Source of the DNA: Roseomonas indoligenes | Lineage (GTDB): Bacteria; Pseudomonadota; Alphaproteobacteria; Acetobacterales; Acetobacteraceae | Direction: 5' to 3' | NCBI RefSeq assembly: GCF_017813365.1 | Contig: NZ_JAGIZA010000010.1 | Location: forward strand, 124,001-188,000 | DNA length: 64,000 nucleotides | In this document: one piece after another, positions 4,172-17,789 of the stretch | Layout of the letters: the number at the start of each line of letters is the position of its first letter | Numbering within the stretch: the first letter of the stretch is position 1 | Notes under the pieces: model-generated | What the model saw: only the letters and a program-made list of their open reading frames with translations | Databases searched by the model: none | Told to the model about the DNA's origin: nothing | Made by a program: the position numbers and the translations under genes

Positions 4172-4639
4172 TCAGCCCGGACGCCATGCACGGTGGTAGG
4201 GATGGTTCGTCCGGATGCACTGGGCGCGGAACAACGCCTCGGCCAGCAAGCCGCGCACCAGCATATGGGGCCAGGTCAGCTGGCCGAGGGAAAGGCGATG
4301 GTCGGCGCGCGCCAGCACCGATTCGTCGAGCCCCTCCGCCCCGCCAATGAGGAAAGCGAGCGGCCGGGCCGCCTCTGCCCAGGCGGCGGTCTGTGCCGCG
4401 AGCCGGGCGCTGTCCGGCATCTCGCCGCCGAGATCGAGCGCCACCGCCATCGCCTCGGACGGGATGGCTGCGAGGAGGAGCGCGCCCTCCCGCCGCCGGA
4501 TCTCGGCGGGGGAGCCCTTCGCCTCCGCCAGTTCCCGCAGGTGCAGGGCCGGGCGGAGGCGGGCGTTGTAGTGCTCGAAGAGCGCCGCCTCCGGCCCGCC
4601 GCGCGCGCGGCCGACGGCGAGCAGGAGCGGGGGCTTCAG
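4172..4639 (-). CDS. rlmH: 23S rRNA (pseudouridine1915-N3)-methyltransferase RlmH, probable CTG start
   Basis: RlmH is a SPOUT methyltransferase that methylates pseudouridine 1915 in helix 69 of 23S rRNA. The C-terminal knot is clear: [20 protein letters not shown], then [20 protein letters not shown] and HPYHRA. The first ATG in frame (4450) would leave only 92 residues and remove the N-terminal half, yet the frame continues upstream with family-like sequence ([20 protein letters not shown]). The only sensible initiator is a CTG at 4639-4637, overlapping the rsfS stop as CTGA. That gives exactly 155 residues, the length of the E. coli protein. Translation is probably coupled to rsfS. Confidence 0.9.
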
Positions 4640-6378
4640 TCCTTCCTGCCCTTCTTCCGGGTGTTCGCGCCCTCGCTCAAGGTCGCGGCACCGCCGGACT
4701 CCTCGTCGGGGAAGGTGGGCTGCATGTCCTCGCCGGTGACGTTGAAGGAGAAGCCGGCGGGGCCATCCAGCGCCTCGCCGCGGGGCAGGATGGCCCCGTC
4801 GCCGTTGCCGCCCGGGCGGCCATCGCCGAGCTCGCCGATATAGGCGCGGTCCTGCGCGTCACCGGCCTGGGCGTCGTCGGCATCGCCGTCCACCATCGGC
4901 TTGCGGGGATCGGGGGCTGCCGCGGTCTCGTCGTCGGTCATGCTGTCGTCCTCATCCTCGTCGCCGGAATCCTGGTCCCCGGAATCCTCGTCCCCGACGA
5001 CATCATCGTCGTCGAGGTCGTCGTCGTCCCCGTCGGCCAGGACGTCGTCCGGGCCCTCGTCACCCGCCGCCCCGTCGGAGGGGCGCGCCGACATGGTGCC
5101 CTCCTCCGGTGCCGGGCTGTCCGGGCCCCACATGCGCTCCAGCGCGTAGTTCTGCCGCGCCTCCGGCTTGAAGAGGTGGATGACCAGGTCGCCGGCATCC
5201 AGCAGCACCCAGTCCGGCGAGGCCTCCGTGCGGATGCGGCGGATGCCGTGCTCCGCCAGCGCCTCCTCCACGTGCCGCGCCATGGCCTCGATCTGCCGCT
5301 CCGCCAGGCCGGTGGCGACCACCATGCGGTCCGCGAAGGCGGAGCGGGAGGCGACGTCCAGCACCACCACGTTCTCGGCCTTGTCGTCCTCCAGGCTCGT
5401 CACGGTGGCGCGCACCAGCTCCTCCAGCCGGTCCGGGCTGGGGGCGGGGCGGGGCTGCGTGCGGCCGCGCTGCTTCGGGCCGGCGACGGTGGCGCGCTTG
5501 CGGGGGGTGGGGGCCGCCTCAGCCTCCAGCTCCGCGATGCGGGCGGCCGTCTCGTCGGGCACGGGCTTCGCTGCACGGGCGCGCGCGGGTGCGCGGGCAG
5601 GAGCCTTTGCGGAGGCCTGCTCCGCGACCTCGGTCACCGTCCGGACCGCGGCCTTCGCGGGGGCCTTTCGGGCAGCGGGGGTCCTGGGCGCCGGCGCCCT
5701 GGCAGCAGGGCGGGCCGCAGCGGCGCGGGAGGGCGCCTTCGGCGCCTCGTCACGAGCCGCCGTGCGGGGCGTGGTGGCGCGCCCGCGCGCGGGGGCGGCT
5801 GGCTCCGCGGTGCGGCGGGCCGGGCTCGCGGCCGCCTTCGGCGCGGGGGCGGCCCTGGAGGAGCGGGCCGGGGCGACCTTCACGGCGCGGGCGGGTGCCC
5901 TGGCCGGGGCGGTGCGGGCCGTCGTGGCGCGGCCGGTGGCTGGCTTCGCGGCGCTGCTGGCGGGAGCCTTCGGCGCGGGCGCCCTGGACCGGCTCGGGGC
6001 AGCGGTCGTGCCCGCGCGGGACGTCGTGGCAGGAGCCTTGCGCGCGGGAGCAGCGGCCTTGCGGGCCGGCGCGGCGGACGCGGTGCGAGCGGGCGCCGCG
6101 GAAGTCTTGCGCGCGGGTGCCGGGGCGGCCTTGCGCGCTGGCGCTGCGGAAGCCTTGCGGGCCGGCGCGGCGGCGGAGGTCCGGCGCGCGGGTGCCGCAG
6201 GGGCCTTCGCCCGGGTGGCGGTGGGCGTCGCGGCCGAGGCCCGGGCGGGCGCCGGCTTCTCGGCCCGGGACGCCGGCTTCCCGGCCGTGGTCTTGCGGGC
6301 CCCGGCGGCGGGGGGCTTCGGCCGCGTGGTCCGGCTGCGGGTGTTGCCGCCGGTGGGTTCCTTGGGGGTGCGGGCCAT
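4636..6378 (-). CDS. rsfS: Ribosomal silencing factor RsfS with large basic N-terminal arm and acidic tail
   Basis: RsfS binds ribosomal protein uL14 and blocks subunit joining during starvation. Family members are about 105-150 residues; this one is 580. Residues about 316-417 form the domain ([20 protein letters not shown], then [42 protein letters not shown]). Residues 1-315 are Ala/Pro/Arg/Lys-rich with PAR(K/R/T) units every 8-9 residues around 63-114, like histone H1-type or AlgP-type tails. Residues about 441-480 are almost all Asp/Glu. The ATG at 6378 follows a purine-rich ribosome site (AGGAAGAAGAG); an upstream ATG at 6516 would read through the hairpin array. It lies between nadD and rlmH, the usual order. 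Confidence 0.93.
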
Positions 6379-6408
6379 GACTCGCTCTTCTTCCTGTTTC
6401 TTCGTCGT

Positions 6409-6536
6409 GGCGCCGTGCGGCGCCGGGCTCATTCTTTGCGCCGCGTGGCGCCCGGATGGTCTGTGGTGCCCTCTGGCACCGGGCTGCTTCGTGGCACCTC
6501 GCGACGCCGGGTTCATCCTTGGCGCCCTGCGGCGCC
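6409..6536 (-). repeat. Five tandem 28-bp hairpin units in the nadD-rsfS intergenic region
   Basis: Five units start at 6409, 6437, 6465, 6493 and 6521, an exact 28-bp period. Each is a 6-bp arm, a 4-base loop, a 6-bp arm, then a 12-base spacer. The consensus arms are GGCGCC and GGCGCC. Unit 3 has GGTGCC/GGCACC, a compensated change. In unit 4 the arms mispair on the plus strand, but in minus-strand RNA they pair with two G-U wobbles. Unit 2 has one end mismatch. The array fills the leader of rsfS. A period that is not a multiple of three argues against coding. It could be a translation control element, RNA stability element or protein-binding array. Confidence 0.85.
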
Positions 6537-6540
6537 GGGG

Positions 6541-7287
6541 TCAGTCCGCCCCGGCTGGCGCATGGAGGGCGGCCGGGGCGCTCCCCTCAGAAGGGCCGGA
6601 AGTGGCCGTGGTTGCGTTGGCCCGCAAGGCCCTGATCGCCGTCGCGCTCGCCGGGTGCTCCCGCGCGGGCACGAGGCACCAGGGGGCGTGCGCGCCGGGA
6701 TGCCGCGCCGCCTCCGCCATCAGCATGCCGCAGGGGCGGCGATGCTGGCGGAGCGCGCCCGCCGCGGCGCCGTGCAGGGCGCGCCGCGTATAGCCCGGGC
6801 GCGGCAGGACGGCGATCGGCGTGCCGCGTGCCAGCTTCCGCCAGCGGCGCCAGCGCGGCAGCTGCACCATGTTGTCCGCTCCCATGATCCAGACGAACTC
6901 GGCGCGCGGAAACAGGCGCCGCAGGCGGGACAGGGTGCGCTCCGTCTCCCGCAGGCCCAGCCGTGCCTCGATGTCCACGGCGATCACGCGGCGGCCATCG
7001 GCGACGCGGCGGGCCGAATCCAGCCGCTCCTCGAAGGATGCCATCCCTGCGCTGGGCTTCAGCGGGTTGCCGGGGGAGACGAGCATCCAGACCTCGTCCA
7101 GCCGCAGAACGTGCAGCGCCATCTCCGCCACGTGCCGGTGGCCGGTATGGGCGGGGTTGAAGGAACCGCCGAGCAGCCCGATCCGCACCCGCCGCCCGTC
7201 GCCGTATCGGCCGGGCTCGCGATGCGAGGAAGGGGGGCGGGGCGACGGCGCCTTTTCGCGGCCGGCCGGCGGAACGGGGGGCGGCAT
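6541..7287 (-). CDS. nadD: Nicotinate-nucleotide adenylyltransferase
   Basis: NadD adenylates nicotinate mononucleotide with ATP to form deamido-NAD. The signature GLLGGSFNPAHTGHRHVAE matches the nucleotidyltransferase GxFxPxHxGH loop. EVWMLVSPGNPLKP is the substrate loop, FVWIMGADNMVQLPRWRRW follows, and SATAIRA is the C-terminal ATP-binding motif. The ATG at 7287 gives 248 residues with a 33-residue low-complexity start; a GTG at 7188 directly before RIGLLGG would give a more typical length and is a real alternative. nadD precedes rsfS as in most alphaproteobacteria. NadE, the last step of the same pathway, lies nearby at 13.3 kb. Confidence 0.93.
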   Translation of the reverse strand: MPPPVPPAGREKAPSPRPPSSHREPGRYGDGRRVRIGLLGGSFNPAHTGHRHVAEMALHVLRLDEVWMLVSPGNPLKPSAGMASFEERLDSARRVADGRRVIAVDIEARLGLRETERTLSRLRRLFPRAEFVWIMGADNMVQLPRWRRWRKLARGTPIAVLPRPGYTRRALHGAAAGALRQHRRPCGMLMAEAARHPGAHAPWCLVPAREHPASATAIRALRANATTATSGPSEGSAPAALHAPAGAD

Positions 7288-16307: not shown

Positions 16308-17789
16308 ATGACGTCCCGTACCGATCCTGCCGTTGCGGCGGAAGCCGATCGCGCGTCCGCGCCCGAATCCGTCCTCTGGCACCACGCGGCGTTCTGCCGC
16401 CTTGCCCTTCCGGTTGAGCCGGGGGTGGAGGCGTGGCGGCGCGAGGGGGTGGATGCCACCATCCGCATCGCCCCGGGCGCGGCGGGGGATACATTGCCGG
16501 ACGGGCCGGGGCTGCGCCTGCTGCTCGCCTATCTCTGCGACTCCGCGCTGCGCGCCGGCGGAGCCACCGTGGCGCTGGGCGCCGACGCGGCATCGCTGGC
16601 CGCGCGAATGGGCCTGTCCGACGGCGCAGCGGCCCCGCTCGCCGAGCAGATGGACCGGCTTCTCGGCGCCCGGATCACCGCCTCCGTGGATGGCGGGCCG
16701 GAACTGGCCGTGCTGGACGCCCGCAGCCGCCCGCGCGGCGGTGGCTGGCCCGCGCAGGTGAAGCTGAACGCGCGTTTCCTGGCGAGCCTTGAGACGAGCG
16801 CCGTGCCGCTGGACCGCGGCATCCTGCGCGCCCTCTCGGGTTCCGCCGAGGCGATGGACGCCCATGCCTGGACGCGCGAAGCCCTGGCCCGCGCCGGCGC
16901 GGACGGGACCGTGACCTCGCCCTGGCCGGAGCTGCAGGCCCGTTTCGGTGTGCCGGGTGCAGCCGCCGCAGCCTTCCGCGATGCCTTCGAGGGCGCGCTC
17001 CGCCTCGTCTTCGAGGCGGATCTGTCGATCGAACTCGCGGTGGATAATGACGGCGTGAGCGTGCGCCAGGCGCAGCCGCAGGAAGCCCCTGCTCCGGTCG
17101 AGGCGGCTCCGGCTCCGGCACCGGTGCCCGCGGCGGCCGTTCCCGTGGCGGACCCCGTTCCTGCCCCGGTCGTGCGGCCGGTTGAAGCGGCGCCGGTTCC
17201 CGATGCGCCCGCTGCCCCGCCCCGCCCGGTGTCCGCCGTGGCGGAGGAGGAGGTGCGCCCGCGCGAGGAGCGCCGGCGCGATGACCGTCCGCGCGATGAG
17301 CGGCCTCGCGAGGAGCGTTTCCGTGACGAGCGGCCTCGGGATGACCGTCCTCGCGACGAGCGGTCCCGTGACGAACGCTCCCGCGACGACCGGCCCCGCG
17401 AGGATCGCGGCCGCGACGACCGCCGCAACCGCCGTGACGAAGGCGGGGAAGGGGGCGTGGACGCGATCGTGGACGACATGGTCCGCCTGCGTTCCCACCT
17501 CACCGGGCTGCCGCAGGTGGTCTGGCTGCGGCGCGGGCACGGGGACGAGAACATCCTCATCGGCGTCACCCCCGGCACGCGCATGGACACGGACCGGCTG
17601 ACCATCCTGATGGTGGAACCGATCGTGATGCAGGTCAGCGGCGGCCTGGGCCAGAACGATTTCGACCGGGTCTCCGCCTGGGTGATGGCGAACCGCGACC
17701 TGATCGACGAGTTCTGGGAGGGCAGCATCGTCTCCGCCGAGGAGGTGAACAACCGTGTCCGCAAAGCCCCGGGGCCGAGCTGGCGCTGA
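16308..17789 (+). CDS. RepA-like protein with Arg/Asp repeat linker and a C-terminal domain
   Basis: The first 240 residues look like the winged-helix RepA of broad alphaproteobacterial plasmids. LRLLLAYLCDSALRAGGATV and SLAARMGLSD resemble its helix pair, LLGARITASVDGG the next strand, VKLNARFLASLETSAVPLDR the conserved Pro-Leu-Asp step, and SPWPELQARFGVPG the recognition region. A Pro/Ala/Val linker follows. Residues about 320-378 are an Arg/Asp/Glu repeat built on RPRDER units. A compact domain at about 383-493 contains LPQVVWLRRGHGDENI and DLIDEFWEGS, which I do not recognise. No partition genes or iterons are near, so plasmid replication is doubtful. It may be a domesticated initiator. 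Start chosen at MTSRTDPA; 493 aa. Confidence 0.6.
   Translation: MTSRTDPAVAAEADRASAPESVLWHHAAFCRLALPVEPGVEAWRREGVDATIRIAPGAAGDTLPDGPGLRLLLAYLCDSALRAGGATVALGADAASLAARMGLSDGAAAPLAEQMDRLLGARITASVDGGPELAVLDARSRPRGGGWPAQVKLNARFLASLETSAVPLDRGILRALSGSAEAMDAHAWTREALARAGADGTVTSPWPELQARFGVPGAAAAAFRDAFEGALRLVFEADLSIELAVDNDGVSVRQAQPQEAPAPVEAAPAPAPVPAAAVPVADPVPAPVVRPVEAAPVPDAPAAPPRPVSAVAEEEVRPREERRRDDRPRDERPREERFRDERPRDDRPRDERSRDERSRDDRPREDRGRDDRRNRRDEGGEGGVDAIVDDMVRLRSHLTGLPQVVWLRRGHGDENILIGVTPGTRMDTDRLTILMVEPIVMQVSGGLGQNDFDRVSAWVMANRDLIDEFWEGSIVSAEEVNNRVRKAPGPSWR

Follow-up and report, generated by a model that had tools for sequence, protein, structure and literature searches.

A five-unit hairpin array in the rsfS leader of Roseomonas indoligenes, a putative damper of rsfS translation, and the apparently weak rsfS start codons of its relatives

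How did a chain of five hairpins come to stand between nadD and rsfS, and what could it do to the expression of the downstream gene? In the 64,000-nucleotide stretch of Roseomonas indoligenes DNA analysed here (the window), the nadD-rsfS gap extends from 6379 to 6540 and contains five head-to-tail units of 28 nt on the minus strand (6400-6539), which overlap neither the nadD stop (6541) on one side nor the conserved rsfS start codon (6378) on the other. Along the rsfS strand each unit opens with CCC or CCG, continues with two 6-nt arms around a 4-nt loop and closes with a 9-nt spacer (Table 1). The 16-nt stem-loops begin at 6409, 6437, 6465, 6493 and 6521 (plus coordinates), a spacing of exactly 28 bp that agrees with a previous reading made from the letters only (the sequence-only reading). 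The word "exact", which that reading applied to the units themselves, holds for the spacing but not for the copies, whose pairwise identity is only 15-22 of 28 bases. Computed over a 166-nt stretch, self-identity at lag 28 is 0.572, versus 0.521 for the best lag (10-83) in 2000 dinucleotide shuffles; the period thus stands above all 2000 shuffles and is not a product of chance.

Table 1. Features of the nadD-rsfS region in the window, with predicted hairpin and Shine-Dalgarno energies.
Feature	Coordinates	Strand	Sequence features	Energy or evidence
Array unit 1 (RNA order)	6512..6539	-	CCC GGCGCC GCAG GGCGCC AAGGATGAA	hairpin -14.7 kcal/mol
Array unit 2	6484..6511	-	GGCGTC GCGA GGTGCC, two G-U pairs	-6.5 kcal/mol
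Array unit 3	6456..6483	-	GGTGCC AGAG GGCACC, double compensatory change	-11.6 kcal/mol
Array unit 4	6428..6455	-	GGCGCC ACGC GGCGCA, broken outer pair	-9.8 kcal/mol
Array unit 5	6400..6427	-	GGCGCC GCAC GGCGCC; nearest to rsfS ribosome-binding site	-13.2 kcal/mol
nadD (upstream gene), putative 5' end	6541..7287	-	stop TGA 6543-6541	ORF and translation; Pfam PF01467, E 7.3e-17
rsfS	4636..6378	-	conserved ATG, MARTPKEP...; RsfS domain about 5128-5406	Pfam
rsfS ribosome-binding region	6379..6399	-	AAACAGGAAGAAGAGCGAGTC; weak Shine-Dalgarno	-3.3 kcal/mol vs -8.3 in G006 and G013

A reading frame across the array is open from 6516 and holds in-frame ATGs at 6516 and 6432, and translation may initiate within the array. 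A coding function was rejected because 28 is not divisible by three and the relatives start at the ATG of MARTPK, and the array was thus taken as leader. In the window, the search for a non-AUG rsfS start was negative: the ATG at 6378 opens the conserved MARTPK sequence, and genomes G006 and G013 share this start context. The protein encoded at 4636-6378 displays a very long N-terminal extension rich in Ala, Pro, Lys and Arg and an acidic C-terminal tail rich in Asp and Glu; low-complexity N-terminal extensions of a like kind are seen in RsfS of near relatives.

On the minus (rsfS) strand 29 of the 30 stem pairs are intact, and on the plus strand 27. Both arms of the unit at 6465 have changed together (GGTGCC/GGCACC) and two pairs of the unit at 6493 are kept solely as G-U, in minus-strand RNA, as had been described previously. 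Paired six-base arms in every unit were not recovered, since the outer pair of the unit at 6437 is broken on either strand. The strand-specific rescue, formerly read as a mark of selection, depends on two C-to-T changes within a single unit, and when five arm changes are placed randomly at least 29 pairs survive with P 0.086 for the given strand and 0.17 for either strand. It was consequently discarded as proof of RNA selection, there being two changes only and a pairing count within chance. Covariation support for the pairing is also weak and not significant, as 36 of 500 shuffles matched or exceeded the score calculated over 12 units and one pair had changed on both sides. Within the array, stems carry 5 changes in 60 positions, compared with 23 in 80 for loops and spacers (Fisher P 0.0028) and 15 in 60 for spacers alone (P 0.026). 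Stems thus vary less than loops and spacers, which makes some constraint likely, and this divergence suggests that the hairpin stem is probably constrained. The best fold of the whole leader (169 nt) is one long nested structure of -73.6 kcal/mol, against a total of -55.8 kcal/mol for the five local hairpins. As GGCGCC is its own reverse complement, most arms are able to pair with most others across units, and the global minimum-energy fold therefore does not consist of five separate hairpins.

Computational comparison with the genus, in which nadD was matched in 15 of 15 genomes, located a single-copy hairpin right after the nadD stop in seven other genomes; together with the window's genome these make 8 of 15, all with a GCGC-type stem of five to seven pairs at this place. 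More than one copy is found only in the window's genome (1 of 15). Conservation in relatives consequently applies to a single hairpin at the same place and not to the tandem array, while the proposal of an intercistronic leader element of rsfS is upheld by the same-place copy in 7 of the 14 other genus genomes and by the lower divergence of the stems. The remaining leaders are of another type in G001, G010 and G011, carry a different hairpin in G003, G004 and G012, and are represented in G014 by a long leader that lacks the GCGC-type stem. In many relatives nadD and rsfS overlap without any leader (gap -4), so rsfS can do without the hairpin. The nearest genome, G006, carries the same 28-nt unit, with a spacer identical to that of array unit 2, ACGAAGCAG. 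Units 2 and 5 each match the G006 unit at 23 of 28 bases and one another at 22 of 28; being as near to that unit as to each other, they do not point to a recent expansion, and the sequences suggest an array about as old as the G006 split. With a single copy in seven relatives and the array in one genome, the array is explained as a lineage-specific tandem expansion of one ancestral intercistronic hairpin, with a putative effect on rsfS.

Such an expansion could also have been neutral. Slippage at a hairpin-forming palindrome would have multiplied a leader segment that then drifted without effect on rsfS, a possible origin about which we are nonetheless doubtful. It is consistent with the occurrence of the array in one of 15 genus genomes, with a number of intact pairs that chance can reach (P 0.086) and with the weak covariation. 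Template switching between the arms of a quasi-palindrome can yield paired changes, and the double change of unit 3 could have arisen in this way, from arm to arm, without selection. Drift alone would not predict arms changed at 5 of 60 positions against 23 of 80 in the rest of the unit, nor a stem core that is better kept than the loop across the seven single-copy relatives.

The array gave no Rfam match at the gathering threshold, the only match in the window being a tRNA. An intrinsic terminator or attenuator was rejected, as no terminator-like site (stem plus U-tract) was identified on the minus strand between 6300 and 7350; the sole site of this type lies on the plus strand at 6370-6385. 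The genome contains no second array copy with E below 0.05 (next best E 0.07), and the bare motif GGCGCC-N4-GGCGCC is present 25 times, including two instances inside the array, compared with 9 for the reversed control pattern; membership of a REP-like dispersed repeat family was rejected on these grounds. Two other repeat regions were observed. In G000:C23 (about 461418-464977) matches to the stem motif are spaced by multiples of 354 bp along 3.5 kb of a single strand, a periodicity that suggests a gene with long tandem repeats of 118 codons each, and positions 17250-17423 of the window hold tandem repeats of 15, 30 and 45 bp, perhaps an arginine-rich coding repeat. Located right after a stop codon and between two cistrons, with stable G+C-rich stems devoid of a U-tract, the array could be a REP-like stabiliser or processing site of the nadD-rsfS mRNA, shifting the nadD:rsfS mRNA ratio rather than acting directly on translation, which we consider unlikely because the genome, unlike those with REP elements, has no dispersed family of the unit. 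We give very little credence to the palindromic repeats being DNA binding sites, either an rsfS operator or a promoter element: the exact 28-bp spacing and the palindromic GGCGCC arms would suit such sites, but the arms are altered in three of the five units, relatives have one copy only or, in many cases, no leader, and a scan of the region that covers few promoter types revealed no sigma-70-like promoter.

The interpretation we favour is a minisatellite-like tandem expansion, private to the lineage, of one intercistronic RNA hairpin, with a main effect that would most likely fall on translation. Transcription may proceed across the nadD-rsfS gap, in which case a series of G+C-rich stems placed after the nadD stop and ahead of the rsfS ribosome-binding site would keep terminating ribosomes from getting to rsfS and re-initiating there, leaving rsfS insulated and RsfS synthesis lowered. 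The array may thus be a damper or an insulator of rsfS translation, a predicted role in which the hairpin chain of the window would be combined with an unusually weak Shine-Dalgarno. At -3.3 kcal/mol this is the weakest of the 11 AUG genomes of the genus, the others ranging from -6.6 to -8.6. The proposed wider rule in Alphaproteobacteria is that rsfS initiation would be kept weak, mostly by AUA, AUC, AUU or CUG starts of the infC kind, the window's clade being an exception with AUG. Taken as a whole, the private expansion of one ancestral hairpin, likely damping or insulating rsfS translation within this rule, is a reading for which we regard the case as evenly balanced.

Starts were called as the in-frame NTG or ATN codon with the best duplex to the anti-Shine-Dalgarno. 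From 220 Acetobacteraceae genomes drawn, of which 200 had nadD at E <= 1e-20, 132 loci were read (52 returned directly by searches and 80 fetched among the matches listed), a non-random set that favours higher-scoring nadD matches and includes the window's genus in full. Raw counts before curation, over 152 loci including duplicates and outgroups, were ATC 58, ATA 49, ATG 22, GTG 9, TTG 8, ATT 3 and CTG 3. Curation of the 132 loci kept 116, set aside 14 as unclear (four with raw calls, namely ATG, ATA, TTG and GTG) and left two without a candidate; 13 of the 116 kept starts were set by eye (eight previously GTG; L159 previously ATG) and 5 were located via the start context. The curated starts comprise 55 AUC, 40 AUA, 3 AUU and 18 AUG, with no GUG or UUG; L085 (ATT) is ambiguous, having an ATG directly after. 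An AUC, AUA or AUU start with Shine-Dalgarno support is predicted from sequence in 98 of 116 loci, where the strength of the Shine-Dalgarno is not independent evidence since the starts were picked by its energy. In most loci AUA or AUC comes after the Shine-Dalgarno and typically precedes GCC CGC or GCC AGA; the window's clade has AUG at that place. AUG starts are confined to three genera, g1 (11/15), g68 (4/4) and g96 (3/3), the window's genus among them. Within the counted coding stretches of nadD and rsfS, AUA accounts for 15 of 1075 isoleucine codons; ordinary codon usage therefore does not explain how often it stands at the start. Eight of 112 family loci have an open frame that contains no ATG, GTG or TTG before the RsfS domain is reached; five of these are clear cases, since the frames of L132, L139 and L185 run off the fetched stretch. 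Of 96 non-AUG loci, 19 lack all three codons from the called start to the domain. The majority of the sampled relatives seem to initiate rsfS at a weak and uncommon codon, a pattern that suggests RsfS production deliberately held down. Among the same loci, the nadD start of several Acetobacteraceae (L076-L079, L082, L083) is maybe CTG, in some as CTGA overlapping a stop. NadD and RsfS lie in one continuous frame in L136 (G190) and L140 (G232), a predicted NadD-RsfS fusion protein, and in L134 (G134), which shares their genus label g121, the frame is open throughout the fetched stretch.

In the wider class 123 genomes were drawn, 113 of them with rsfS, and 90 loci were read, each from another family. 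The best calls were ATA 27, CTG 21, ATC 11, ATT 10, ATG 8, TTG 6, GTG 6 and none 1. The 61 calls with a strong Shine-Dalgarno (energy <= -6) comprise ATA 24, CTG 16, ATC 8, ATT 6, ATG 3, GTG 3 and TTG 1; AUA, CUG, AUC and AUU together account for 54 of the 61. In 49 of these 54 non-canonical loci the best ATG, GTG or TTG is at least 2 kcal/mol worse, and in five it is closer. From the in-frame stop upstream to the RsfS domain, 14 of the 90 class loci contain no ATG, GTG or TTG. A further 28 loci of the phylum include eight from Alphaproteobacteria (CTG 6, TTG 1, ATG 1) and 20 from outside that class (ATG 12, TTG 3, CTG 2, ATC 2, ATT 1), and with ATG in 12 of the latter 20 the pattern is not universal. 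In E. coli MG1655 the rsfS start is TTG.

Four control genes indicate how such calls are to be read. For rpsO the caller returned ATG in 26 of 30 cases, with ATT in three and ATC in one, and thus falsely gives AUU or AUC in about one case in eight; three of the misses sit 6 nt past an ATG and the other, L321, is a chance match far upstream. For infC it returned CTG in 15 of 15, the next best codon lying 15 nt downstream (ATG in 10 of 15). As an observation on infC itself, this CUG call is placed behind AGGAG in all 15 genus genomes (L235-L249), the window's included. The nadD control gave AUA, AUC or AUU in 6 of 52 loci but is a poor one, as its Shine-Dalgarno is mostly weak. The noisy rlmH control gave these codons in 9 of 44 and, at an energy <= -6, in 1 of 19, but CTG in 7 of 19, which makes the CTG calls of rsfS less secure than those of AUA and AUC.

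Array and start codon may be linked. In the near set (L056-L112) the median Shine-Dalgarno of AUG loci, -6.6 (n = 16), is weaker than the -10.3 of AUA, AUC and AUU loci (n = 37), with a P of 1.6e-6 that is optimistic because the species are related and shared ancestry is uncorrected. Family-wide the two groups differ little (medians of -6.6 for AUG and -7.4 for AUA, AUC and AUU; P 0.008), and the AUG genome G223 has a strong Shine-Dalgarno of -11.6. Leaders of at least 30 nt, counted in 108 of the 116 loci, accompany 9 AUG, 9 AUA, 16 AUC and 1 AUU start, with a median fold z of -1.69 for AUG, -1.08 for AUA and -0.61 for AUC. Leader hairpins also occur with AUA or AUC starts (e.g. G012, G004, G061) and hence are not a specific substitute for a weak codon; the idea that the array replaces a lost weak codon found no specific support. 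It is reasonable to suppose that initiation at rsfS is held weak in one way or another. RsfS blocks subunit joining from the 50S side, IF3 is the anti-association factor of the 30S side, and IF3 disfavours the whole set AUA, AUC, AUU and CUG. With slightly less than even confidence, we propose that RsfS would be made from IF3-disfavoured starts across Alphaproteobacteria, which would tie its synthesis to IF3 activity like that of infC and place both anti-association factors in one feedback loop, and that the window's clade would have escaped to AUG, holding RsfS down by a weak Shine-Dalgarno and, in this species, by the five-fold hairpin array.

Conserved non-canonical starts have been described in S. 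aureus for cvfC1 (AUU), ccpN (AUA) and infC (AUA), where reporters with non-canonical starts gave ~10% of AUG expression in poor medium (PMC13009471); the portions of that text available contain no mention of rsfS. In vitro, according to the accessible part of a second study, mismatched pairs, for example CAU reading AUU, are used less when IF3 is raised (PMC10158994). A term search for "start codon" gave no hit in the available portions of PMC13246957 and PMC7125091. Among the matches listed, titles and abstract openings contain no report of a non-AUG rsfS start or of nadD-rsfS tandem hairpins, and no paper among them names rsfS as a non-AUG gene.

The start-codon pattern matters more than the array. 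If AUA, AUC, AUU and CUG are truly the starts of rsfS in most Alphaproteobacteria, the N-terminus of RsfS may be misannotated in many genomes, RsfS would join IF3 as a second anti-association factor whose leader has a weak start, and the question would arise of whether IF3 sets the RsfS level. The array itself is a natural experiment in how far leader hairpins multiply before a translation-control gene.

Three known systems bear comparison with this locus. E. coli infC and pcnB start at AUU, and rsfS of the relatives resembles such infC-type genes in its conserved non-AUG start behind a good Shine-Dalgarno; it differs in that the pattern is class-wide and drifts among AUA, AUC, AUU and CUG, and the window's own rsfS differs further by its AUG. 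REP or BIME elements and intercistronic stabiliser hairpins are palindromic G+C-rich units between operon genes, sometimes clustered. The array is likewise palindromic, G+C-rich and intercistronic, but in contrast with REP or BIME elements it is confined to one gene pair, is not dispersed and consists of 28-nt units arranged head-to-tail. Minisatellites and variable tandem repeats in leaders are head-to-tail repeats of constant length, and the array shares with minisatellites its head-to-tail order, its constant unit length and its restriction to one lineage, whereas its units are strongly diverged (15-22 of 28 bases identical) and their stems are better kept.
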